Shown here in pieces: positions 5,549 to 48,207 of a stretch of 51,329 bases of DNA (position 1 is the stretch's first letter; every line of letters starts with the position of its first letter). Source of the stretch: a virus; IMG/VR virus record IMGVR_UViG_3300009103_001281, positions 1 to 51,329 of that record; one strand, 5' to 3'. Position numbers and translations under genes: made by a program. The notes beneath the pieces are model-generated. The model was not told where the DNA came from, did not search any database, and worked only from the letters and a program-made list of their open reading frames with translations.

Positions 5549-7453
5549 TTAATATTTCTGTGATCCATCATACGAAGGATCTAATGTTGTGCTATATGAC
5601 GAGGCTTCGTCTACAAGTTGAATGTTAATATCAGACTCATTAATAGTGATAATCTGAGAGGCTGTAGCAATTACGTCATTATTCTCAGGAACTCCTCGAA
5701 TGCCAATTGATGTAGTAGCCTCATCAGGAATAAACCCAACAAGAGAAACGACTCCAGTATCATAGTCAACCGTTCCGATATTTGAATTTAATACGGCCCC
5801 GGTACTGGAGATAACTTGCATTGCTCCATTCAAATCTCGCAGCGAACAACCCAAATTATTAAAATAGGTAAAGGTCGTACTCGTAACAGCACCTTCATGT
5901 GTTGAATGTGGATGATATATTGGATTTGCCAAATTGATTGTGTAGTTTCCTCCAGTTCCAACTACTGGAGAAAACTCAACTCTCATCTTCACCGAAAGTA
6001 GATTATTGCTAATCGACGAATCAATATTGTCAATTGATGTTAGCAGATTAGAATATTTAAAATAAGAATCAAATTTTTCCAAATTCTGATCAGAATAATC
6101 TTGAATATTCAACGAAACTAATGTTGCCATAGATGATGGCGTGATTGTCGTCTTTCGACTATCATATTTCACGATAGAAGATAATTCCAAAAATATGTAT
6201 TCAGGATCAACAATAACTGGTCGAATCGTCACAACATTTGTCGGAGATAAAATAGTCTTTGCAATTCTATTCTTTTCTTCGTTCGTGAGCACAAATCCAA
6301 CCTTTGGTTTAATTGCAATATAAACTGCTCCATAATCTGGAGGAGTATTCTCTTCTCCACCCCAAACACGAATTGCATCAATGTCTGGATAATCAGTAAC
6401 CAATCTCGTCTTATAGTCATTGGCTGTTACTGATCGACCCTGGGCTTCATAATTAAGTGGAGCCAGAAATTTAATTGAAGAAATTGATTCTCTGTCAGAT
6501 CCACCCGAGGCACTCTTTACAATTGTTGTAGAAATTACACTATCGAAAGTTCCGGTTCTAGGATAGGTCAAAACACTATCTACAACTGGAATAGGATTAC
6601 ACGAGAATACACTCGCGCCATTTCCTAGTGTAGCCTTCGTCAAAGCATAACTCATAGTAACGATATTACCAGGTTCTGGCTTATATCCAACTTGGCCATC
6701 ACCAAAATATATTTCAAATTTTTGATCAAATCCCTCTTGTAACCAATATACCTTATCAGTAGACGAAACTGAAGTCGAATCTGCAACACGAGTAAATGGC
6801 TCAAAAGATGTTCCTGCTGCCGTATCAGCAACAGTCACTATCAGTGTTGTCATATCTGCTTCTTCATTTGGCACAATAAACTTTTGATCAGTTCCTTCAT
6901 TTGAAACCACATACTGAACAGATGTGGATACGCCTTCTTTTATTTGAACCGACGAAGCCAAAAACGATCTAGAATAATTACCGCTACCATCACCAACAGC
7001 AGAAGTAGATACGACTGATGCAGTAAAAGATTCTATTGCAAGAAATGTATATGCCTTATCGTTTAGTGTAGTCTTAAATATATGACCTTTCGGAATACTA
7101 ATGCTAGAAGGCAAATTACCCTCCGTATCTACGACACTAAACGAAACATCCACAGTAGCAATAGATCCTTGAGGAGAGGTTGGAATATAATTTAATTGCT
7201 TTGCTCTCGACACTACAGAATTTCGGATAATTGCACTATCCAAAAACATCTCATTACCAATCATGTTTGTGTAAAAACCAGTGTAATGTGTATTATATGC
7301 AAGAATATCTAAAAGAACAGAAAGCCCAGAATCATCAAAATCATAATCAGTAAATTCATCCTGACCGCGTAAATAAGCCTTTAGATTCGACTTGATTAGG
7401 TCGAAATCTAGTTCAGTAACTTCAAGTTTATTGGTATTTGTTGTTGTGGCCAT
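5549..7453 (-). CDS. 6: Baseplate wedge protein gp6 (J-like)
   Basis: 634 residues, close to T4 gp6 (660). gp6 dimers form the inner ring that ties the six baseplate wedges together. The N-terminal part (LTELDFDLIKSNLK-like segment, then a DYDFDDSGLSVLLDILAYNT-type motif, then MFLDSAIIRNSVVSRAKQLN) is the signature of the gp6 / phage J family. The middle is the beta-rich J domain, with YWLQEGFDQKFEIYFGDGQVG around residue 240. The C-terminal part is divergent and beta-rich. The stop codon is 22 bases upstream of the LamG protein, and the start follows the gp25 stop directly, so translation is likely coupled. I see no frameshift or truncation. Confidence 0.92.
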   Translation of the reverse strand: MATTTNTNKLEVTELDFDLIKSNLKAYLRGQDEFTDYDFDDSGLSVLLDILAYNTHYTGFYTNMIGNEMFLDSAIIRNSVVSRAKQLNYIPTSPQGSIATVDVSFSVVDTEGNLPSSISIPKGHIFKTTLNDKAYTFLAIESFTASVVSTSAVGDGSGNYSRSFLASSVQIKEGVSTSVQYVVSNEGTDQKFIVPNEEADMTTLIVTVADTAAGTSFEPFTRVADSTSVSSTDKVYWLQEGFDQKFEIYFGDGQVGYKPEPGNIVTMSYALTKATLGNGASVFSCNPIPVVDSVLTYPRTGTFDSVISTTIVKSASGGSDRESISSIKFLAPLNYEAQGRSVTANDYKTRLVTDYPDIDAIRVWGGEENTPPDYGAVYIAIKPKVGFVLTNEEKNRIAKTILSPTNVVTIRPVIVDPEYIFLELSSIVKYDSRKTTITPSSMATLVSLNIQDYSDQNLEKFDSYFKYSNLLTSIDNIDSSISNNLLSVKMRVEFSPVVGTGGNYTINLANPIYHPHSTHEGAVTSTTFTYFNNLGCSLRDLNGAMQVISSTGAVLNSNIGTVDYDTGVVSLVGFIPDEATTSIGIRGVPENNDVIATASQIITINESDINIQLVDEASSYSTTLDPSYDGSQKY

Positions 7454-10442: not shown

Positions 10443-11159
10443 TCAGGCAACAGTCTCATCATTAGGTGTAACGAGTGTTCTAACATCCGTCAGAACATTT
10501 CCAACACGCTCAAAAGAAGCATCAAGAGTTTCACCAATTCCTACAAATCCTGCTTCGGCATTTTCTATATCCGCACCATTCGCCAAAAAGGCAAATCCCG
10601 ATTCAAGATCAGAAATAGGACCACTCAACTCAGTCATTATCTGATTCGTTGCCATTGCACTTAACTTTCCGTATATCTGTTTTTTCACTTCATCGTCATC
10701 TCCAGATAGAATACCGGGAATGGCCAACGATCCAGCAAATCCACTAGCAAAATCTCCAGCAGCGTCACACAATGTCGTTGATAAAAATCCACCAAAATCG
10801 TCACCCGCCGCAATGAGACCCTGTGCGACAGCCTCGGCCGTCTGTAGATATGGTTCTGCCTTTTGCATTATCTCATCAAACTCTTGCTTTGCTCTAGCCA
10901 TAGCCACATTAACTGCTGTTTGTGCTAAATTTGATGCTAACTGCTCGGCGCCGGCGAGCAGATCACTTGCACCTCCTTGTATTTCTTGCCTAATCAGGTC
11001 TGGATTAAATATTTTGAGCACACGACCAATTTGATCTAGGGGATTAGGAATACCTAATTCAGACAAAGGATCTCCCATTACTGCCGTCAAGGCTTCTTGA
11101 TTCATAGGAAATGTAAACTCTTGCCCGCCAAATGAAATTGGACACGATTTTTCAGCCAT
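10443..11159 (-). CDS. Ala-rich helical protein between gp5-OB and spike genes, unknown
   Basis: 238 residues with no family I recognise. The N-terminus (AEKSCPISFGGQEFTFP) looks beta-rich, and the rest is mostly Ala-rich amphipathic helix (LLAGAEQLASNLAQTAVNVA, then FDEIMQKAEPYLQTAEAVA). It overlaps the end of the OB-fold gene by 8 bases and precedes the spike gene by 20, so it is co-translated with the two halves of the split gp5. An adaptor or chaperone for hub-spike assembly is a reasonable guess from this position, but there is no direct evidence. Confidence 0.7.
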   Translation of the reverse strand: MAEKSCPISFGGQEFTFPMNQEALTAVMGDPLSELGIPNPLDQIGRVLKIFNPDLIRQEIQGGASDLLAGAEQLASNLAQTAVNVAMARAKQEFDEIMQKAEPYLQTAEAVAQGLIAAGDDFGGFLSTTLCDAAGDFASGFAGSLAIPGILSGDDDEVKKQIYGKLSAMATNQIMTELSGPISDLESGFAFLANGADIENAEAGFVGIGETLDASFERVGNVLTDVRTLVTPNDETVA

Positions 11160-11454
11160 TGTATGCTCCTGTGTTAATAGTTCCTAATATCACACGATCT
11201 TGAGTCTGAATACCATCTCGACAAAATCCGACCACCCACGTTCCTTCTTTTGGTGGATGAACTACCTGATCACCATTAAAAGGTAACATAGGATATGCCC
11301 AAGGCAGGTCGGTTGTAGGCTGAGCATTACGGTCTTCATTGTCGATACCGAAACAACGAACACGAACACGACCAATACCAAAAGGATCCATTCGGTCTTC
11401 AACTATTCCAACAAACCAATAAAATGATCCATCACTTCCCTGACCTGTTCTCAT
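11152..11454 (-). CDS. OB-fold hub protein (N-terminal gp5/VgrG-like domain)
   Basis: 100 residues. The sequence FYWFVGIVEDRMDPFGIGR, followed by RVRVRCFGI and then PWAYPML and GTWVVGFCRDG, is the gp5/VgrG OB-fold signature, including the usual WxxP and GTWVxV strands. In T4 this domain is the N-terminus of gp5 and sits on the gp27 trimer. Here it stands alone, and the beta-helix is encoded by a separate downstream gene. The start overlaps no other gene, and the AAGG just before the ATG can serve as a ribosome binding site. It lies next to the kinase gene (4 bases) and the hub gene. Confidence 0.82.
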   Translation of the reverse strand: MRTGQGSDGSFYWFVGIVEDRMDPFGIGRVRVRCFGIDNEDRNAQPTTDLPWAYPMLPFNGDQVVHPPKEGTWVVGFCRDGIQTQDRVILGTINTGAYNG

Positions 11455-11458
11455 AACC

Positions 11459-12475
11459 TTATGCCTTCAATTCTTTTCTCTTAATTTCTTGACGCACAGA
11501 AGGAGGAATTCTATCACCCATCCAGTCGTTCAGTTTCTTTTGAATTTCTTTATCCGCAATAAATCTCTTGCCCGCTTCCTTTACCTTCAGATAAGTAAAC
11601 CCCTTGACAACAGGGAATGATCTATTCTTTGGATTGTTAAACTTAGGAGTCACTTTAATTTCATTACCTTTCTTATCAGTCCAATAAACAGTAGACTTGC
11701 CTAAAATAACATACACACCACCATTCACATTCTTAGGAATATTTCCTCGAACAATATCTGACATCGTTCGTGCTGCGCCCTCATGCGTCTGCAATAAAAT
11801 CTTACTAGGAACTCTTCGATTTCTCTCCATATTTGCCTGTACTGCAAAGTCATAATCAGATAGTACCCAAACAATATGTATGTTCTCTGGTTGATATCCA
11901 ACAGACAATAATTGAGAAACTGCTTCGGTCATATTTCTAGTATTCTTCAGCGTCACATCAAAAACAATATTCGGTAAACGGTCTCTCGACTTCGCACCAC
12001 CAAGAAGATAATTTAGTGTCTTGTCTCTAATTCCAAGATTATCAACTAAGTTATGCAACGTAAATACATCATCTGCATTTCTCAAATCCAACTCGTCAAG
12101 ATCCTTTGTTGGCATTTGAGGAATACTTGGAGAAGTTCCTGCTGGATCGTTGGCATGAGATTTTGCATAATTCATCACAGCCTTTTTTCGTAGTTCAGTT
12201 CCACTGACACCTTTCTGCACCTTTGATGCATCTTTACGAATACCATCGAGCTTCATGAATGCACTTTTCCATTCGTCTACATCACGAACCTTAAACTTAT
12301 TGGCATCCATATAATTACCTAAAGAGAATCCTTTACCAGATCCAGCACCGCCAGCTAGGAAAACAACCTGACCATAATTGGCTCCCTTTCCAATCACAAT
12401 CAATTTCTCTTCTAGATATTCTTCGTGCAACAAAAGATTTTCATACTCTTCTGCGGTTAGCGTAATTCTTGCCAT
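11459..12475 (-). CDS. P-loop kinase (zeta-toxin-like) inside the baseplate operon
   Basis: 338 residues. A Walker A motif GGAGSGKG is at residues 42-49, preceded by a hydrophobic strand (GQVVFLA). An acidic strand follows (VRDVDEWK, around 62), and then a segment PNIVFDVTLKN with ILLQTHEGAARTMSDI downstream. This layout resembles zeta-toxin and polynucleotide-kinase-like P-loop enzymes that phosphorylate a small molecule or RNA. The substrate is unknown. It is cleanly spaced within the late structural genes, 3 bases after the hub gene stop and 4 bases before the OB gene, so it is expressed with virion proteins. The C-terminus is very basic (PPSVRQEIKRKELKA). It could be a virion-carried enzyme or an assembly factor. 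Neither is shown. Confidence 0.75.
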   Translation of the reverse strand: MARITLTAEEYENLLLHEEYLEEKLIVIGKGANYGQVVFLAGGAGSGKGFSLGNYMDANKFKVRDVDEWKSAFMKLDGIRKDASKVQKGVSGTELRKKAVMNYAKSHANDPAGTSPSIPQMPTKDLDELDLRNADDVFTLHNLVDNLGIRDKTLNYLLGGAKSRDRLPNIVFDVTLKNTRNMTEAVSQLLSVGYQPENIHIVWVLSDYDFAVQANMERNRRVPSKILLQTHEGAARTMSDIVRGNIPKNVNGGVYVILGKSTVYWTDKKGNEIKVTPKFNNPKNRSFPVVKGFTYLKVKEAGKRFIADKEIQKKLNDWMGDRIPPSVRQEIKRKELKA

Positions 12476-31635: not shown

Positions 31636-32628
31636 TTATATCCAGCTGGAATCACCAAGACTCAAATCTATCAACCCATCTTCCATTGTCCACAACATAT
31701 CACCATTCATCATTGATTCGATATGTTGAGCAATAGCAATTTGTGACTCATCAAATCCATGTTCAAAATAATTATTCTCCCACGAAATCTCAGAACCATT
31801 TGGCAGAATGGAAGTGAGTTTCACCAAAACACCATCATCGAAATGCACTCCGACACCTCGATTATATGTATCCCCATCTTCTGCAATGGCACTAAACCAA
31901 GGTGTAGATTCGTCTTTCAACAAACAACCAGAAACGAAAGTTCCTTTACTTCCATGTATACGAATCGAAGGAGTACCTCTCATATTCTTGGCGATTTCTC
32001 TTTTTGCTAAATCAGAATGTTTAAACAATAGTGTTGCTCCATTCTCAAATTCAGCCAGAGTGATATTCCAATAATCATCATTATCATTCAGTGGATAATT
32101 TTTATGAGTCGATGCTATAACATTTTTAATACCGACATCTTTTCCTACATAATTTCTAAGCTGAGCCATGCCATGATAGTTATATGTTCTATAATCATTC
32201 TCAACTAAATGAATATCGCCCAACAAACCAGCCTCAATGACTTTCTTTTTAAAACATTCTAAAGGAAGAAATGGCCATTGCTCAACAACACCAACAACGA
32301 TACCAGACTCTTCTACAGTCGCCCGTATCACATCCCAATGCTGAGGAGGAGGAAAAGGAGTCTCCACTAAAATATCACACTCAACTTTTGTAGCCTCTAG
32401 TACAATTTGAGGAGTCGCATAATATGGCACAACAGCAAGCAGAAAATCTGGCTCATCATGATTCACTAATTCTGATACTGTCGCAAAAACTTCATAGTCT
32501 CCTACTTCATCGGATAGCTTACCAGACTGTGTAACAAATCCAGAAATCTCTAAATCAAAAGATTCGATCACATCCTTATAGTAATCGACATATCTTTTTC
32601 CTGCACCAACAATTCCTATTTTTTTCAC
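31636..32628 (-). CDS. GFO/IDH/MocA-family NAD(P)-dependent oxidoreductase (possible sugar 3-ketoreductase)
   Basis: 330 residues from the GTG at 32628, which overlaps the previous stop as GTGA. The N-terminal KKIGIVGAGKRYVDYYKDVI is a Rossmann nucleotide-binding motif. Residues near 95 (CDILVETPFPP) match the family EKP motif, but Lys is replaced by Thr, an unusual loss of the catalytic Lys. The C-terminal domain has the family's beta sheet (WNITLAEFENGATLLFKHSD). In dideoxysugar pathways the C3 ketoreductase is of this superfamily (for example KijD10). A sugar dehydrogenase for another substrate is equally possible. Confidence 0.8.
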   Translation of the reverse strand: MKKIGIVGAGKRYVDYYKDVIESFDLEISGFVTQSGKLSDEVGDYEVFATVSELVNHDEPDFLLAVVPYYATPQIVLEATKVECDILVETPFPPPQHWDVIRATVEESGIVVGVVEQWPFLPLECFKKKVIEAGLLGDIHLVENDYRTYNYHGMAQLRNYVGKDVGIKNVIASTHKNYPLNDNDDYWNITLAEFENGATLLFKHSDLAKREIAKNMRGTPSIRIHGSKGTFVSGCLLKDESTPWFSAIAEDGDTYNRGVGVHFDDGVLVKLTSILPNGSEISWENNYFEHGFDESQIAIAQHIESMMNGDMLWTMEDGLIDLSLGDSSWI

Positions 32629-33320
32629 GCTGTCATGTCCTTCCACATCTCTTGACATTTTTTGGCATGTTCGTCCAAAGAATGTTCATAATTAAAGCAA
32701 TATATAATTCTCAAATTTTTCTCTCTTGCCGGCAAAGTAGAATGCAACATCGAAGTGTTGAATATAAAGTATGTATCATTTGAACTATTAATTGTATGTA
32801 TCCTATTTTCTGTAATCTGAGAAAAATCTGACGCTCTATCGTATTGCATCGTCAATGCCGTATTAGGCACACACGCTAAAACAGGCTGCGGTTCTCTATC
32901 AAAGTGTGGATAGAATATCAACTTTAAACCAGGAGGAAACATTCCAGAAAAATTACCATCATATACATATGTGTCTCTATGCCATTCTTGATAACTACTC
33001 TTTCCATCTGGATAAGGATGTGCATTTCTAATCTGAATATGAGATAAACATAAATTCAAACCAATCACATCTTTAATGTAAAGATCAATTCCATGTTCGA
33101 CTAGAACATCAACAAAAGACTCATCATAATCAAAAACAGAAGGTTTCAGGTCTTGTGTGTATGGATACTTTTCAACAAAGTGATAATCATCCTTTAGCGT
33201 TTCATCATATATAGTTTTCAATGCGGACATATAATTGATATAAGTTTTACTGGTAATATCAAAAGCATTCGTGCTAAAATTATTCAAATAAAAATTCTTG
33301 GCTTGTTCTCGTATAATCAT
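32625..33320 (-). CDS. Phytanoyl-CoA-dioxygenase-like 2OG-Fe(II) oxygenase
   Basis: 231 residues. The iron triad is readable: HRD with H114 and D116 (EWHRDTYVY), the distal H193 (SMLHSTLPA), and R204 (KNLRIIY) for 2-oxoglutarate. The double-stranded beta-helix region FPPGLKLIFYPHFDREPQPV lies between. These enzymes hydroxylate small molecules or sugar-like compounds. In natural-product clusters related enzymes modify sugars and aminocyclitols. It overlaps the MocA-like gene through GTGA and the upstream glycosyltransferase by 4 bases. Confidence 0.82.
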   Translation of the reverse strand: MIIREQAKNFYLNNFSTNAFDITSKTYINYMSALKTIYDETLKDDYHFVEKYPYTQDLKPSVFDYDESFVDVLVEHGIDLYIKDVIGLNLCLSHIQIRNAHPYPDGKSSYQEWHRDTYVYDGNFSGMFPPGLKLIFYPHFDREPQPVLACVPNTALTMQYDRASDFSQITENRIHTINSSNDTYFIFNTSMLHSTLPAREKNLRIIYCFNYEHSLDEHAKKCQEMWKDMTA

Positions 33321-35459: not shown

Positions 35460-36467
35460 CTAAACAATTCCTCCTATTGTCTTTAAAAGATTTGCAACCT
35501 TTACTTTGCTAGTATGATACTTCAAAACATGATCATAACCAGCTTGACCTATTTTTATGCATAAATCTTTATTGTTTAAATAATATTCAAGTTTTTCTTC
35601 AAATTCTTTCATATTAGAATACTCAACCCAATGGATTCCATCCTTTGGTCTATTAGGACACACTGGCATAGGTTTCTGAATAAAACATAATGTTTTATTC
35701 GCCATAATTTCCCATTCTCGATATGTAAAATTACTAGCGCCCCATGCAGCAACACTAATATAAGATTGCGATAAAACTTTAAAATAATCATCAAGCGGTA
35801 TACGAGTTCCTAAAATATGATTTGGCCCATTTCTAGGAATATTATAGGTGGTGTCATAAAATTTATTAGCCTTTGGATCACTACAAAAATTATAAATGTC
35901 AGACCTTAATCCAGTTGTAAAATGACCAAAGGAACAAAATATATCATACTTTTTTTCCAAATTATAATAATTTCTAAACATGGAATTTTCGCAGCCATAT
36001 GTAAACGGAATAGCGCCCCGGTCTACATCTTCTGGATAACATTCTCGTTTAAAATACCATTTACAATAATCAAGCATATCTTCGTTCATCCAAGGCTCTT
36101 GTTTATATCTCCTTTTATCGTCCAATCCATAAGAAAGTGCTATAGAAGCATTACTTGTCCCAGTATAATTCCATTCAGAACCATCCCAATATACAGTAAC
36201 TTCGGGTCGATTTATTTTTTTAACAAGATCCTCCTTTCCCACACCAAGAGGACCATACTTACCGCCAGTCTTTGCCCATAAATAAAAAATAAAATCTGCA
36301 TCTTTAGAATGTTCTATTATTTCATCTTCAGTATATGCTTTTTTAATTCCATTTCCTAAATGACTAGCAATAACCTCAACACCATTTTCATATAAACCCT
36401 CCGCAATGAAAGCAACAGTAGTGTCTTCTTTAAAATAGGTAGTATCATGTATAAAAACAATTTTCAT
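35460..36467 (-). CDS. Glycosyltransferase-like protein
   Basis: 335 residues from the ATG at 36467, which overlaps the previous stop as TAATG. An upstream in-frame start would lie in the other gene and is rejected. N-terminus MKIVFIHDTTYFKEDTTVAF is a Rossmann first strand. The C-terminal part (FTYREWEIMANKTLCFIQKP, then HWVEYSNMKEFEEKLEYYLN) resembles the C-terminal domain of GT-B enzymes that use a glycosyl donor. Aromatic and acidic residues are numerous (WDGSEWNYTGTSNASIA). Donor and acceptor unknown. Confidence 0.7.
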   Translation of the reverse strand: MKIVFIHDTTYFKEDTTVAFIAEGLYENGVEVIASHLGNGIKKAYTEDEIIEHSKDADFIFYLWAKTGGKYGPLGVGKEDLVKKINRPEVTVYWDGSEWNYTGTSNASIALSYGLDDKRRYKQEPWMNEDMLDYCKWYFKRECYPEDVDRGAIPFTYGCENSMFRNYYNLEKKYDIFCSFGHFTTGLRSDIYNFCSDPKANKFYDTTYNIPRNGPNHILGTRIPLDDYFKVLSQSYISVAAWGASNFTYREWEIMANKTLCFIQKPMPVCPNRPKDGIHWVEYSNMKEFEEKLEYYLNNKDLCIKIGQAGYDHVLKYHTSKVKVANLLKTIGGIV

Positions 36468-37171
36468 TACAAAAGTTCCTTCATTTTTTCGCAATTCATC
36501 GACACATCACTTGGCATTTCTACTTCATGATTATCATATATAGAATTTTTTTCAATTTCTGTTTTTTTCCGTTTAACAAAATCATACAAAAACATAGAGT
36601 CTCCACCGACATTAATTATTCCAGTTTCATCCAATAAATCTAAAACAATCTTCGCAGCATCGGTGTTATATATTGTGCTTTTTTTCAAATCACCAAACAC
36701 CTTTGAATGTGGATAAGGATACTCACACATAGATATTCGCAAAATCAAAGAATTATCATATAGCTGAACTGCACATTCTCCTCCTAGCTTAGACCATGCA
36801 TATTTATTTACCGGAAACACACCATCTATTTCCTTGTAATTTCCTTTAGTTCCTGGATAGACAAAATCAGTTGAAATGTAAACCAATTTTATATTTCTTT
36901 TTAAACACGCCAAAACAACATTACTAGTTCCGATAATATTGGATCGAATACTCCTATCAGGAAAATCATTATGTAATGCCATAGGTCGAGCAAATGCACC
37001 CGAATGGATAAAAATATCTGGACGAACATCATCAACAACATTTTCTACATTAGTTAAATCGGCAACATCTAACTTAGACTTATCTAAAGCAACCATTTCG
37101 TATTCAATATTCTGCTCAACTAACTGTTGTGCAAACTTTCCATTTCCACCAGAAACAATAATTTTTTTCAT
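36467..37171 (-). CDS. SDR NDP-sugar reductase (RmlD-like 4-ketoreductase)
   Basis: 234 residues. The nucleotide-binding motif is KKIIVSGGNGKFAQQLVEQN, followed by STDFVYPG (100-107) and the catalytic pair Tyr124/Lys128 (NKYAWSK). These are the marks of RmlD, a dTDP-4-dehydrorhamnose reductase. At 234 residues it is shorter than RmlD (about 290), and the C-terminal substrate part is reduced. It probably reduces C4 of an NDP-keto-sugar, which would be the last step of a dideoxysugar pathway. It neighbours a 2OG oxygenase gene upstream and a glycosyltransferase downstream. Confidence 0.82.
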   Translation of the reverse strand: MKKIIVSGGNGKFAQQLVEQNIEYEMVALDKSKLDVADLTNVENVVDDVRPDIFIHSGAFARPMALHNDFPDRSIRSNIIGTSNVVLACLKRNIKLVYISTDFVYPGTKGNYKEIDGVFPVNKYAWSKLGGECAVQLYDNSLILRISMCEYPYPHSKVFGDLKKSTIYNTDAAKIVLDLLDETGIINVGGDSMFLYDFVKRKKTEIEKNSIYDNHEVEMPSDVSMNCEKMKELL

Positions 37172-38780: not shown

Positions 38781-39965
38781 TTATAAAATCCTCACACAAG
38801 GAACATGGGTAATAAACCTACCATCAAAATAAAGTTCTTTCTTCCTAATCTCTTCAGCAAAATTCCATGCACCCAAAAAAGCATAATCAAAAATGTCAGA
38901 ATCTTCTTGGGGAACAATTGGAATATGCATACCCGGAGAATACTTATGTTGTTTTTCTGGAGTAGTATCCGTGATACACGATATTAGATCAGGACCAATA
39001 TCACAATAATTAAAGACTGTAGTTGACTTTGATGTTGCACCATAACTAATCACCTTTTTATTTTGGTCCGCACATCGGGTCAATAGATTTCTCAAATCTT
39101 CCTTAGACTGAGCAACCCTTTCAGCAAATCGGTTAAAGCACTCAATATCATCCAAGCCAATAATTCTCTCATAATCAATATACTTATCAATATTAGGCTC
39201 AGTACGATGACCTACTTTTTGGGCCCAGATTCTATTAGATCCACCATGAACATTCAGCAAATCTACATGAACGATCTCAAGACCATTTCTTCTCAGAAGT
39301 TTAGATAATGCCATTACTGAAAAAATATGAGGATGCTCATCGTATATTTGGTCATAAGAATTATTATTGATCATACTAGCAAGAGACGGGTCTTCAAAAA
39401 CAAACAAACCATGAGGCTTGAGTAGCGACTCAACTGCGGAGAATGTTTCGTCTAGATCAGGAATATGACAAATGCAATTTGCAGCAAAAATCAAATCCAT
39501 ATATCCATTCTCTTGCCCAATCTTTTCTGCTAGATTTCTATTCCAAAAATCACAATAGGTTTTATAGCCCAGATCATTAGTCTCTTTTGCAAAATTCGCA
39601 CATGGCTCTACAGCAAAAGTATTCTTATTGTCCCAATTTTTCAGAAACACACCATCATTAGAACCAATCTCTAAAACTCTAGGCGGACCGCCCCAAATTG
39701 CTTCCCACTCAAACAGGTACTTAGTTGCAATGTCAGAAAAACGCGAAAAATGATCCACCATAGTCTTCGACATTGAGCCTCTATATGCATAGGTGTCGTT
39801 AAACATCAACTCTGGTTTGACATAATCCAATTGAGTGACCAAACACGTCTCTTCATCAAAACCAACGGAAAGATTATAAAAAAACTCATCTACAAAATTT
39901 TGTTCAGATAGAAACCCATTCGCAATAGGTTGTCTGCCCAAATCTAAAAATGAAACTTTAGGCAT
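38781..39965 (-). CDS. SAM-dependent sugar C-methyltransferase (TylC3/KijD1-like)
   Basis: 394 residues from the ATG at 39965. The SAM-binding motif is PRVLEIGSNDGVFLKNW, followed by a second motif (DLIFAANCICHIPDLDETFS). The C-terminal region (VISYGATSKSTTVFNYCDIG, then DLISCITDTTPEKQHKYSPG and HIPIVPQEDSDIFDYAFLGAW) is characteristic of the sugar C3-methyltransferase family that makes branched deoxysugars. The usual N-terminal four-cysteine zinc region is missing. The protein begins at the LDLGRQPIANGF motif that follows it in relatives. It would act on an NDP-3-keto-sugar. Confidence 0.82.
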   Translation of the reverse strand: MPKVSFLDLGRQPIANGFLSEQNFVDEFFYNLSVGFDEETCLVTQLDYVKPELMFNDTYAYRGSMSKTMVDHFSRFSDIATKYLFEWEAIWGGPPRVLEIGSNDGVFLKNWDNKNTFAVEPCANFAKETNDLGYKTYCDFWNRNLAEKIGQENGYMDLIFAANCICHIPDLDETFSAVESLLKPHGLFVFEDPSLASMINNNSYDQIYDEHPHIFSVMALSKLLRRNGLEIVHVDLLNVHGGSNRIWAQKVGHRTEPNIDKYIDYERIIGLDDIECFNRFAERVAQSKEDLRNLLTRCADQNKKVISYGATSKSTTVFNYCDIGPDLISCITDTTPEKQHKYSPGMHIPIVPQEDSDIFDYAFLGAWNFAEEIRKKELYFDGRFITHVPCVRIL

Positions 39966-39966
39966 T

Positions 39967-40605
39967 TTAAAGCCTTTCCCAATACTGATCAACTACCATT
40001 TTAGTCTGATTTGTAATACTATACATTTCAACATCCTTATAACACGACACCGGCAAAACTCTAAAATCAACACTGACCCTAGACTTGCATGTATCATTCA
40101 CCTTATTTCCGTGCAATAATGTTGCGCCTTTCCACATTACGCACTCACCAATATCGGCTTCAATTGGACTGTAATCCTTTTTCCCCGGCGAGGACTCTAC
40201 CCATATAGTATTTGTTCCCCATGCTTTAGTTAAGGGTAAATAGAAATTTATCTCATCCTTGGTATGGCTATAATCACAATCTTTATGAAATTTTGCAACT
40301 GCTATATTATCAGGCTGATGTACTCTGAAGGTAGGTATTCTCTGATATAAAAAATCTTCATTAATAATTTCAGCAATAACGTCCTTCATAAAAGAATGAT
40401 ATATTTCATAAAAATTTGTAGTGTTTATTCTGCTATAAAATTCTTTATGATAAACCGTAATTTGATCCTCAACTACAGCATCAAGTAAATCATACTGTTT
40501 GCTGCCGATCCATTGGGTGTGAATTTCATCCAACATACAATTATCATATAAGGAGGAAACTTCTCTGACAAAATTATATTTTTCAATCTCATATTCAAAC
40601 TTCAT
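39967..40605 (-). CDS. StrG-like 2OG-Fe(II) oxygenase, copy 1
   Basis: 212 residues from the ATG at 40605. The upstream in-frame starts lie inside the preceding methyltransferase gene. The motif AKFHKDCDY gives H107/D109, distal H165 is in LLHGNKVND, and Arg176 in SRVSVDFRV. The segment INFYLPLTKAWGTNTIWVES is the conserved block of the streptomycin StrG type. These proteins are oxygenase-like and of uncertain reaction in the aminoglycoside pathway. A paralogue lies at 47560-48207. It ends one base before the methyltransferase start. Confidence 0.8.
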   Translation of the reverse strand: MKFEYEIEKYNFVREVSSLYDNCMLDEIHTQWIGSKQYDLLDAVVEDQITVYHKEFYSRINTTNFYEIYHSFMKDVIAEIINEDFLYQRIPTFRVHQPDNIAVAKFHKDCDYSHTKDEINFYLPLTKAWGTNTIWVESSPGKKDYSPIEADIGECVMWKGATLLHGNKVNDTCKSRVSVDFRVLPVSCYKDVEMYSITNQTKMVVDQYWERL

Positions 40606-40609
40606 AAAA

Positions 40610-41194
40610 TTAACTTCGCAACAACTCCGAAATACTTGGGCGATACTCTCGATCAGCATCAGTGTCCCAGTAAACATCACTATCTAATACCCTATACGAA
40701 ACCCCCGTTTGGGTAATTTTTTTCATCTCATATTTCACCATCCAATCAGCATAATCCCTCTCTACGGAACCACCCTCAAAGAAAACTCTACAATTAGAAT
40801 CAACCATTTCAGAAAACTTTCGATTTAGCTTCAAAATAGTGTCTCCAGTATTTGATATATCAACATGCAATACATTAAAACCAATATTTATATCCAGCCA
40901 ATCATCAAATGACATATTTTTCACAACAACATTATCAAGCACGTTATATCGCTCTAAATTGGCCATGACTGTATCATGGTTAGAACTAATATACTCATAG
41001 TCGTCAAAAAGATCATATGCATATACAGTTCCGCCTGTTTGCTTTGCTGCCAATGCCAAACAAACCGTCGAGTACCCATTCAATATTCCAATATCCACAA
41101 GGGTTTTCGCATTAGTTTCTATAGCGGCATCATACAAAAATCGACCCATCTCTCTGTGTCTATAGCTAGAGTTTATTTCTGGATTTATAAACAT
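40610..41194 (-). CDS. SAM-dependent methyltransferase-like protein
   Basis: 194 residues. The ATG at 41194 has AGGAGA seven bases upstream. The motif KTLVDIGILNGYSTVCLALA and the strand TVYAYDLFDD followed by NVVVKNMSFDDW form a class I methyltransferase fold of the MTase_24 type, with FNVLHVDISNTGDT at the expected acidic strand. Its acceptor is unknown. It is followed by the StrG-like gene after four bases. It is like the genes at 43197 and 44528. Confidence 0.72.
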   Translation of the reverse strand: MFINPEINSSYRHREMGRFLYDAAIETNAKTLVDIGILNGYSTVCLALAAKQTGGTVYAYDLFDDYEYISSNHDTVMANLERYNVLDNVVVKNMSFDDWLDINIGFNVLHVDISNTGDTILKLNRKFSEMVDSNCRVFFEGGSVERDYADWMVKYEMKKITQTGVSYRVLDSDVYWDTDADREYRPSISELLRS

Positions 41195-45290: not shown

Positions 45291-45857
45291 TCATTCACCA
45301 AAAGTATTCTTAAAGGTTTTCCACATTGTATCCTGTTCAGAAATAACCAAATCGTCGCAATTTTTCCAATCAATATTTAAATAAGGATCATTCCATATTA
45401 ATCCTCTATAATCATCATAACAATAAAACTCATCAGTTTTATATATAACCGCACAATCATCTGTTAATGTTTTATATCCATGAGCAAACCCATGAGGAAT
45501 CCACAATTGATTATTATTATTATCACTTAATTCAGCCGAAACCCACTGACCAAAAGTATCTGAATCTTTTCTTATGTCAACCACAACGTCAAGTATAGCA
45601 CCCTTAATGCAAGTCACTAACTTTGCCTGAGGTTTAGTTTCTTGATAATGCAATCCTCGAATAGTATTCTTATACTTATTATATCCAAGACTATCTTGAA
45701 CAAAATTTGTCTCTTTCCAAAAATCAGAAACCACATTATTTGAATCTTTAAAGATTTTATTCACATTATATGCTTCATAAAAATATCCTCTGTTATCTGG
45801 AAACACATCAGGACTAATTAAAACAATATCTTTAATTTCTAATTGTATAAAATTCAT
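45291..45857 (-). CDS. rmlC: dTDP-4-keto-6-deoxyhexose 3,5-epimerase (RmlC-like)
   Basis: 188 residues, the normal RmlC length. The family marks are FPDNRGYFYEAYN, then TIRGLHYQETKPQAKLVTCI with the catalytic His70, DVVVDIRKDSDTFGQWV, and WIPHGFAHGYKTLTDD at 119-134. It epimerises C3 and/or C5 of an NDP-4-keto-6-deoxyglucose, giving the L-sugar. In dideoxysugar pathways the related 5-epimerase does the same step. It lies directly downstream of the NDP-hexose 2,3-dehydratase. Confidence 0.92.
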   Translation of the reverse strand: MNFIQLEIKDIVLISPDVFPDNRGYFYEAYNVNKIFKDSNNVVSDFWKETNFVQDSLGYNKYKNTIRGLHYQETKPQAKLVTCIKGAILDVVVDIRKDSDTFGQWVSAELSDNNNNQLWIPHGFAHGYKTLTDDCAVIYKTDEFYCYDDYRGLIWNDPYLNIDWKNCDDLVISEQDTMWKTFKNTFGE

Positions 45858-45869
45858 TAACTTTCTCTC

Positions 45870-46607
45870 CTAAAGATACGACATAATACTTCTCAAATGA
45901 GGATTTACTATATTATCCATTTTAAGCATCTGTTTAATTTGATATAAAGTAGCCCAATAAAAATTATCAGGAATTTCAATTGCGTCCCTTGTCTCTACTA
46001 ACATATTCATAACTCTCTTATGATAAAATCTTCCTCCATCTTCTGGATACCAATGATTGAATATTATTTTTTGATTACTATTCTCATCAAAATATTCAGC
46101 AAATCTTGGAATCGAACCCCCATGAATAGCACGCAAATTATCATAAGTGACCTGAAGTGTAGGAGACAATAAAACATCATCATAATTTCCGGGCTCAAAC
46201 TTAGCCTCTATTAAATATTTTTCATCTTTTTTGAGCAATCCTACAACACTAGACTCAGTTCCTTGGTCTATCATAGGTTGATACCAACCATTTTTCGACT
46301 CTCTTATATTCGTTTCAGTTTTTACTCCAATTACCTTAAAAAATCCATTAGACATATGTTCTATATTTAAGGTCTCTTCATTTAGCTTCCACATTAAATC
46401 AGAATAAACATCAGCCAAATTACATTTTTTAGTATTTACTTTAGATCGAATATTCGATTTAGTTTCAGTAAACCAATTCAAAATGTCATCGACACTTTGC
46501 GAATCATCTATAGACTGCAAAAAAGTATTCAGCCTAAATTCAATCTCATCATCTAATAGTTTATTATGACCACAAACTATCTCAATTATCTTATCTTTAA
46601 TTTCCAT
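45870..46607 (-). CDS. NDP-hexose 2,3-dehydratase, single-repeat form
   Basis: 245 residues from the ATG at 46607. The region SKNGWYQPMIDQGTESSVVG, then EAKFEPGNYDDVLLSPTLQV, RAIHGGSIPRFAEYF, GGRFYHKRVMNMLVE, and DNFYWATLYQIKQMLKMDNI with NPHLRSIM is the block sequence of the TylX3/EvaA/EryBVI dehydratase family. These enzymes remove the C2 hydroxyl of an NDP-4-keto-6-deoxyhexose, the committed step to 2,6-dideoxysugars. Known members have two such halves and about 460-480 residues. This one appears to have one. The reaction is inferred from family; activity of the half-size form is untested. Confidence 0.85.
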   Translation of the reverse strand: MEIKDKIIEIVCGHNKLLDDEIEFRLNTFLQSIDDSQSVDDILNWFTETKSNIRSKVNTKKCNLADVYSDLMWKLNEETLNIEHMSNGFFKVIGVKTETNIRESKNGWYQPMIDQGTESSVVGLLKKDEKYLIEAKFEPGNYDDVLLSPTLQVTYDNLRAIHGGSIPRFAEYFDENSNQKIIFNHWYPEDGGRFYHKRVMNMLVETRDAIEIPDNFYWATLYQIKQMLKMDNIVNPHLRSIMSYL

Positions 46608-47325
46608 ATTGATCCTTATACAGTCTAATATTATCTTCAGAAGTCTTTTTGGTGTCAATATCACTATCTAAATATTCAACTTCATAATGAATATTACCAT
46701 ATTTTATATCAGATTCAAATATATTAGCAACTTCTTTCAATTTAATATCAGCATTTGATCTCAACACCTTAACTCCATCATGATCAGAAAGTGCAACATC
46801 TAGCACATCTTCATATAGAATATAATTCATAACAGTATCTTGTGTTAAGGCAATATCTTCGCAATGCATAATTTTTTGAAAAGTATTTTTTTTCATATAC
46901 TTTCCCAATAAAGCAGAAGGACGAATTATTAAATAATTATCACAAAGCTCTTTGACTACAATTTCTGAAATTCGTTTAGTAACTCCATATGGAGAATCTT
47001 TAGCTTCGTCAATGGTCGAAATAAGAACAAATTTTTTATGAGGAATTTTTGTCAATTCTCTAGTCAAAAATACATTATCATGAAATAAATCATCTTGAAC
47101 ATCAGTCCAATCACAATGACTAATAGTAGCAGCACAATGTATTATTAAATCATACTCTTTAAATTCCATAGTATATGCGGGGTATGTATGTTTTTCATCT
47201 GATACTATATGTTTTTTAGGAAAATCTAAAACACTATCCCCTCTTCTATAAATATCACATTTGGGTAAACATTCATATATCCATCTACCCAAACCACTAC
47301 TCGATCCCGTAAGCAAAATTCTCAT
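46597..47325 (-). CDS. SDR NDP-sugar reductase/epimerase
   Basis: 242 residues from the ATG at 47325. The cofactor motif is MRILLTGSSSGLGRWIYECL, with Ser103/Thr104 (LISTIDEAKD) and Tyr113/Lys117 (SPYGVTK) as catalytic residues. The C-terminal half (IRPSALLGKYMKK, then YILYEDVLDVALSDHDGVKV) is the extended SDR substrate part. It could be a 4-ketoreductase or an epimerase of the dideoxysugar pathway. It overlaps the dehydratase by 11 bases, which supports a joint function. Confidence 0.82.
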   Translation of the reverse strand: MRILLTGSSSGLGRWIYECLPKCDIYRRGDSVLDFPKKHIVSDEKHTYPAYTMEFKEYDLIIHCAATISHCDWTDVQDDLFHDNVFLTRELTKIPHKKFVLISTIDEAKDSPYGVTKRISEIVVKELCDNYLIIRPSALLGKYMKKNTFQKIMHCEDIALTQDTVMNYILYEDVLDVALSDHDGVKVLRSNADIKLKEVANIFESDIKYGNIHYEVEYLDSDIDTKKTSEDNIRLYKDQYGN

Positions 47326-47326
47326 A

Positions 47327-47563
47327 TCATTCTTCTTCAAAAATTTCAATACACAAAACATTAGAGTCATTAATGATAAGCAACCTACCATCATCAGTCA
47401 TCATTTTTGTATATTGTCCCTGTTTTATTGTTTCTGGTTTTATTCCCGTAAAAGTTCGCTTCACGCCATCCTTGAAATGAAATATTTGTGTTACTGTTTT
47501 GGAATTTAAAAAGTAGCTAGAACTTATAGATGATTTCAAATCAATTTCTTTTTGTTCTTTCAT
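47327..47563 (-). CDS. Small beta-rich phage protein, unknown
   Basis: 78 residues. The sequence LKSSISSSYFLNSKTVTQIF, then HFKDGVKRTFTGIKPETIKQ and QYTKMMTDDGRLLIINDSNV resembles small uncharacterised proteins that recur in T4-like phages, to my recollection. It is one base from the SDR gene and overlaps the StrG-like gene end by 4 bases, so it is translated with the sugar genes, but it has no sugar motif. Its role in this operon is unexplained. Confidence 0.7.
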   Translation of the reverse strand: MKEQKEIDLKSSISSSYFLNSKTVTQIFHFKDGVKRTFTGIKPETIKQGQYTKMMTDDGRLLIINDSNVLCIEIFEEE

Positions 47564-48207
47564 AATATACCTCCATAAAATCCACCAATTTTAAATGGTA
47601 TTTTCATATTTACTGAACCATGTTCGCTTGGAAAATATCGAGACTCTGGAATAACTCTAAAATCGAAACTAACCCTTGTTATAGAAGTTGTGTTTATTTT
47701 ATTCCCATGCATCAAATAACTACCATGCCATTCGACACAATCACCGTAAGTATTTTCAAAGGGTGTATAATCACCTTTATCTTCCACTGTTTCAGCCCAT
47801 ACCGTATTTGTTCCATACGCATCTGTTAAAGGAACAAAATAATTTAACTCATCAACCTTTTTAGCCCAGTCTGAATCTCTATAAGTCTTATCTTTATGAA
47901 AATTTCCAACTGCAACATTATTTGGTAAATGTATTCTTATATCAGGAAGTTCTTGATATATTATATTTTCACCAAATCTAGGTTTAATCACATCAGCCAG
48001 AAATTTCAAATATACATCTTTGATAGATGAATCTTCTCTCCATCTATTGTAATATATTTGATTCCAATGCATATACATGTCTTGTTCTCTGGTCAATAGT
48101 GGATATTGTTTTTCCACATGAAGCTGAGCCAAATCATCAGTTTCTAACCAGTCACATAAAACTTTTTTAAAGTCATATTTTTCTGTACTATAATTAAACA
48201 ATTTCAT
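47560..48207 (-). CDS. StrG-like 2OG-Fe(II) oxygenase, copy 2
   Basis: 215 residues from the ATG at 48207. The HxD pair H104/D106 (VGNFHKDKTY), distal H167 (LMHGNKINT), and Arg178 (ITRVSFDFRV) line up with the copy at 39967-40605, including ELNYFVPLTDAYGTNTVWAE. The two copies share the whole layout but differ in the N-terminal third, so they may act on different substrates. It overlaps the upstream GT4 gene's end by 14 bases. Confidence 0.8.
   Translation of the reverse strand: MKLFNYSTEKYDFKKVLCDWLETDDLAQLHVEKQYPLLTREQDMYMHWNQIYYNRWREDSSIKDVYLKFLADVIKPRFGENIIYQELPDIRIHLPNNVAVGNFHKDKTYRDSDWAKKVDELNYFVPLTDAYGTNTVWAETVEDKGDYTPFENTYGDCVEWHGSYLMHGNKINTTSITRVSFDFRVIPESRYFPSEHGSVNMKIPFKIGGFYGGIL

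Follow-up and report, generated by a model that had tools for sequence, protein, structure and literature searches.

A candidate NDP-hexose 2,3-dehydratase with a single repeat in the sugar cassette of a T4-like marine phage

The window analysed here is the whole of the 51,329-nucleotide IMG/VR virus record IMGVR_UViG_3300009103_001281, a fragment of a T4-like phage whose baseplate wedge protein is nearest to those of Methylophilales phage Melnitz (41%) and Pelagibacter phages. As listed in Table 1, the minus strand carries a gene for a 245-residue protein that matches NDP-hexose 2,3-dehydratases, with its ATG at 46607 and its stop codon at 45870. The first-pass annotation had described a half-length member of this family in a virus, and this description holds: the open reading frame is uninterrupted and the same architecture recurs in other viral records. 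A longer listed reading frame (264 aa) opens with a GTG at 46664, which falls within the upstream SDR gene. The ATG at 46607, where the gene shares 11 bases with the end of the SDR gene, is preceded by TATAAGGATCAAT, relatives show TATAAGGAGAAATATG or TATAAGGAGAAGTATG at the same place, and the ribosome-binding site of this start codon is conserved among them. Comparison with relatives gave dN of 0.28–0.35 and dS of 1.2–3.0, most relatives differ among themselves by dN of 0.11–0.14 and dS of 1.5–2.5, and dN/dS is about 0.05–0.3, with substitutions mostly at third codon positions. The gene encodes one intact dehydratase repeat on which purifying selection acts.

Table 1. Sugar-pathway genes and associated features in the 51,329-nucleotide window
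Feature	Coordinates	Strand	Evidence
Single-repeat NDP-hexose 2,3-dehydratase (predicted)	45870..46607	-	245 aa; PF03559 4.2e-50; EvaA 2.5e-46
SDR-type reductase, YGVTK (YxxxK)	46597..47325	-	PF01370 2.5e-06 on ORF 46597-47394
RmlC-type dTDP-4-keto-sugar 3,5-epimerase	45291..45857	-	TIGR01221 rmlC 205 bits, above cut-off; PDB RmlC 2e-46
Conserved ORF upstream of SDR	47560..48207	-	76–79% identity in the same 6 viral records as the SDR
Sugar C-methyltransferase, TcaB9/KijD1 type	38781..39992	-	PF08421+PF13489+PF08484; PDB 5t64 1.7e-85
Gfo/Idh/MocA oxidoreductase	31636..32658	-	PF01408 7e-07
RmlD-like SDR	36467..37171	-	PF04321 2.6e-29; PDB RmlD 5e-21

Neighbours expected of a deoxysugar pathway are present in the form of the SDR, RmlC and C-methyltransferase genes. 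The SDR adjoining the dehydratase, probably the 3- or 4-ketoreductase of the pathway, is 60–67% identical to its counterparts at the same position in six other viral records, and the RmlC gene, 12 bases downstream of the dehydratase, is likewise adjacent in those six (54–56% identity). The C-methyltransferase matches PDB 5t64, a sugar 3-C-methyltransferase, and an enzyme of this kind with PF08484 is encoded in 5/5 short-dehydratase viral records longer than 30 kb, the window included. Two further genes may contribute: the Gfo/Idh/MocA oxidoreductase is possibly a sugar 3-ketoreductase, with no match in the other viral records that have the cassette, and the RmlD-like SDR, not found in other viral records, is a possible 4-ketoreductase. 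No RmlA or RmlB type was recognised among the scanned proteins of the window, so the substrate must be supplied by the host or by a missing part of the genome; one related phage record (L004) has an RmlB-type 4,6-dehydratase gene at 10976-11926. In mycarose- and kijanose-type routes, 2,3-dehydration, 3-ketoreduction, C-methylation, epimerisation and 4-ketoreduction lead to a branched 2,6-dideoxyhexose.

The ORF upstream of the SDR contains an HxD...H...R pattern that suggests a 2-oxoglutarate/Fe(II) oxygenase. Neither it nor a second oxygenase-like ORF at 39967-40680 was assigned a Pfam family; the two are related, both matching one ORF of other viral records, and the former is more conserved across phages than the dehydratase itself. 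The surrounding region (29500-51300), about 22 kb long, is made up of genes for glycosyltransferases, methyltransferases and radical SAM proteins, with T4-like replication and baseplate genes alongside; most of it is not conserved in the viral records that have the dehydratase cassette. Within this glycan cluster, 32625-33320 gave a weak, sub-cut-off match to the halogenase HalD (PF23169, E 9.5e-4).

The same single-repeat gene is found, once in each, in viral records L002, L003, L004 and L086–L089, at 54–62% identity. The order oxygenase-like ORF, SDR, dehydratase, RmlC is common to the six other viral records compared in full, and the conserved SDR-dehydratase-RmlC cassette occurs in 7 viral records including the window, the dehydratase being of the short form in each. 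Another viral record (L092, G013) encodes a doubled, two-repeat dehydratase of 449 residues at 5944-7290 and is without the C-methyltransferase. Searches of GenBank phages by tblastn and of PHROGs gave no match to the dehydratase, and we found no report of a phage or half-length 2,3-dehydratase in the literature searched.

The Pfam search placed exactly one Hexose_dehydrat (PF03559) unit on the protein, at residues 41–245, scoring 170 bits against a curated cut-off of 25. Profile positions 3–203 of 203 are covered, so the protein is a whole repeat, not a truncated piece. EvaA (PDB 4j7g, 471 aa), the sole solved relative by sequence, has two tandem repeats and matches the phage protein twice, through its A half (39–245, 89 bits, 34% identity) and its B half (261–458, 70 bits, 29% identity). 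The first-pass expectation of about 245 residues with one set of conserved blocks was thus borne out by the family profile and by alignment to each half of EvaA. No second copy was detected in the window: the family search returned a single match, and a six-frame scan with every filter off recovered the dehydratase at E 4e-76 and nothing else below E 0.5. The window is a fragment as deposited in IMG/VR, so this is a judgement on the record itself, and the virus may hold another copy outside it. The possibility of a second half lying close by in frameshifted or split form was also rejected: the SDR occupies the upstream flank and RmlC the downstream one, and the six-frame scan found nothing further.

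An AlphaFold2 model of the protein (pLDDT 91) retrieved EvaA (4j7h/4j7g) as the top Foldseek match, with E 4e-14 and TM 0.68–0.70, and on the strength of this model we are confident of an EvaA-like fold. The next matches were the E. coli GDP-mannose hydrolase NudK and ADP-ribose hydrolases, which would suit a generic Nudix nucleotide-sugar hydrolase with no dehydratase activity. We consider such an identity extremely improbable: EvaA is far ahead in both fold and sequence, the Nudix box (Gx5Ex7REUxEExGU) is absent from the 245-residue sequence as read, and the dehydratase glutamates described below are present. The protein therefore has family match and catalytic residues beyond a general Nudix fold.

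One of EvaA's two pockets is inactive; according to a review, E139 and E190 of pocket A are essential, their mutants being inactive, while pocket B tolerates changes (PMC8987622). These glutamates align with E138 and E189 of the phage protein and are kept in 10/10 single-repeat proteins. The same source gives E352 and D353 as pocket-B residues; in the PDB chain position 352 is Val and 353 is Asp, and the E352 numbering may be a slip. Around the glutamates, the phage protein has the rest of the A-type block (E138-P139-G140-N141, H162, G164, E189, K197), together with a pair, R102-E103, of the type found in B halves.

An alignment of 89 A halves, 89 B halves and 10 distinct single repeats was scored for a six-residue block (E138, P139, H162, G164, E189, K197) and for the Arg-Glu pair (R102, E103). 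The block is complete in 86/89 A halves, none of which has the pair (0/89), whereas all B halves have the pair (89/89) and each is without at least one block residue (0/89 complete). Single-repeat proteins have both (10/10 for each). The residues were picked after the alignment had been viewed, so these counts describe a pattern and are not a blind test of it; the pattern was first noticed in 74+74 halves and 2 single repeats of cellular origin, and persisted in every sequence added afterwards. At some positions that are otherwise conserved in A halves the phage forms have another residue, such as Y for Q at 187 and V for N at 199. B halves, which could decay freely were their pocket dead, never lose the pair, and the straightforward reading is that the Arg-Glu pair acts in trans, within the A half's active pocket. 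The complementary distribution of motifs would fit halves that complement each other in trans.

These patterns bear on whether the phage protein is an enzyme at all. It might be a catalytically dead protein that binds nucleotide sugars or regulates, a remnant of the doubled enzyme minus one half; its half length and the precedent of an inactive pocket in EvaA itself (PMC8987622) would be in keeping with such a role. Yet all six block residues are retained in every single repeat, as they are in no B half, and the gene sits under purifying selection in a conserved cassette, so we regard a dead protein as unlikely. Of the two possibilities raised by the first-pass annotation, an ancestral-like single-repeat enzyme acting as a homodimer and a non-catalytic binding protein, the enzyme is thus preferred and the binding protein disfavoured; as for "ancestral", the motif pattern speaks for it and the tree is undecided.

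Single repeats are not confined to viruses. A scan of bacterial genomes with the single sequence found nothing, and an alignment-based scan yielded 554 relatives, the best 80 of which (bacterial and archaeal loci) were kept. Nearly all of these best 80 of 554 are doubled, at about 470 residues; the exceptions are single forms in Actinomarina and OCS155, split forms in two Nitrospirota, and cut or frameshifted loci. In the two Nitrospirota (L005 4701-6313 and L064 4611-6286) two overlapping genes encode one half each, A and B, so that the dehydratase is naturally two-chained and the halves can exist as separate chains. Family searches over wider samples found single-repeat genes in 4 of the 42 genomes sampled from the order of Actinomarina, as well as in two more genomes of its class; the sampled phyla of Prochlorococcus, Alphaproteobacteria and Crocinitomicaceae genomes gave few positives, with doubled forms only. 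The cellular single repeats (L012, L020, L095, L096, L108, L109) have both motif sets and share a clade with the phage forms, but align with the phage protein at only 32–35% identity across the aligned stretch. At the two loci read, a Gfo/Idh/MocA oxidoreductase gene lies within 4 kb of the single-repeat gene (Actinomarina) or directly downstream of it (OCS155), and RmlA and RmlB types are encoded near the Actinomarina gene. No further PF03559 copy was found in the Actinomarinales genomes that have a single-repeat gene.

The existence of separate A and B chains makes it conceivable that the phage protein is an A half that has recently lost its B half and is now paired with a B-half-like host protein, the more so as its nearest halves by identity are A halves (34% against 29% in EvaA). 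Several observations make this very improbable, the first being that the phage protein carries the Arg-Glu pair that no A half has and that B halves supply. In addition, the best tree places the single repeats in one clade (100/98) apart from the A halves, grouping them with actinobacterial A halves costs 31.6 log units (AU p 0.06), and in the Actinomarinales genomes that have it the single-repeat gene is the one copy found.

In that best tree the single-repeat clade branches from the backbone, with all A halves (97/70) on one side and all B halves on the other, which fits pre-duplication descent, since a lineage older than the duplication would join there. AU tests did not reject alternative placements near this node (p 0.25–0.54); joining the single repeats to the main A halves gave p 0.54, and joining them to the Geobacter-type A halves gave p 0.44. 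These two placements leave room for another origin, in which an active single repeat arose from an early doubled enzyme through loss of one repeat before the A halves lost Arg-Glu. This concerns origin only, its mechanism overlapping with the one we prefer, and we hold it possible, at well below even odds. A placement inside the A halves demands two losses of the Arg-Glu pair or a regain. Nor would a simple deletion between repeats suffice: the pair is N-terminal to the block, so a fusion of A-half N-terminus and B-half C-terminus would have neither. Taken together, the motif pattern and the backbone position somewhat favour pre-duplication descent of the single repeats. The fuller proposal, that the phage and Actinomarinales-type proteins are direct pre-duplication descendants acting as two-site homodimers and that the halves of doubled enzymes later decayed in complementary fashion, is one to which we give a little under even odds. 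If true, after duplication one half lost the base-reading pair and the other lost the catalytic block.

Based on these comparisons, it appears, with a probability of roughly 0.7, that the phage protein is a working NDP-4-keto-6-deoxyhexose 2,3-dehydratase with one repeat, a homodimer in which Arg102-Glu103 act in trans, feeding a branched-sugar pathway. The activity, the homodimer, the trans role of the pair, the sequence of pathway steps and the identity of the sugar are inferred, as follows. Each subunit would provide its own site with the pocket-A block, E138 and E189 with H162, G164 and K197, and would reach into its partner's site with Arg102-Glu103 from an N-terminal beta-hairpin, so that the homodimer would have two complete active sites. 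In doubled enzymes such as EvaA, the A half would have retained catalysis and the B half the Arg-Glu pair that serves pocket A. The product, NDP-3,4-diketo-2,6-dideoxyhexose, would next be handled by the SDR reductase and the RmlC epimerase encoded alongside, and probably also by the C-methyltransferase, to end as a branched 2,6-dideoxy sugar for a glycan made by the surrounding glycosyltransferases. The second pocket of EvaA has been called a gene-duplication remnant, and the single repeats offer a living comparison: the residues lost by each half of EvaA are those kept by the other, and the short form retains them all. A statement about an extinct ancestor thereby becomes assayable on one small protein with two predicted active sites, which is also a candidate compact 2,3-dehydratase. 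To the sugar chemistry of T4-like phages this would add C-2 deoxygenation, probably with C-methylation.

The closest parallel to the proposed dimer comes from the dimeric Nudix sugar hydrolases NudK and Bd-NDPSase, which share a single-repeat fold with the phage protein and form homodimers whose N-terminal elements are domain-swapped and whose sites draw on both subunits. In support of the trans reading, the second monomer of these enzymes contributes 46% of the buried substrate surface, and the base is read by an Arg-Glu pair (R37′, E38′) in the N-terminal domain of the partner (PMC4629899). The corresponding N-terminal region of E. coli NudK reads REV, and in the phage protein the conserved pair likewise lies in an N-terminal hairpin; the distance to the next core strand is about 17 residues versus about 9 in NudK, so the same role may be proposed for the pair from its location. 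A profile comparison of the phage protein with E. coli NudK detected no sequence similarity, and the link to Nudix proteins is therefore one of fold. NudK-type hydrolases, moreover, have a Nudix box, which the phage protein is without, and hydrolyse a pyrophosphate. EvaA of Amycolatopsis orientalis (PDB 4J7G/4J7H), TylX3, OleV, Gra27 and SpnO have the same Pfam family, fold and catalytic glutamates as the phage protein, and pathway neighbours of the same kind. The difference lies in architecture: EvaA fuses two repeats of about 470 residues in all and divides the roles between an active pocket A and a remnant pocket B, whereas the phage protein has a single repeat that carries both sets of residues.
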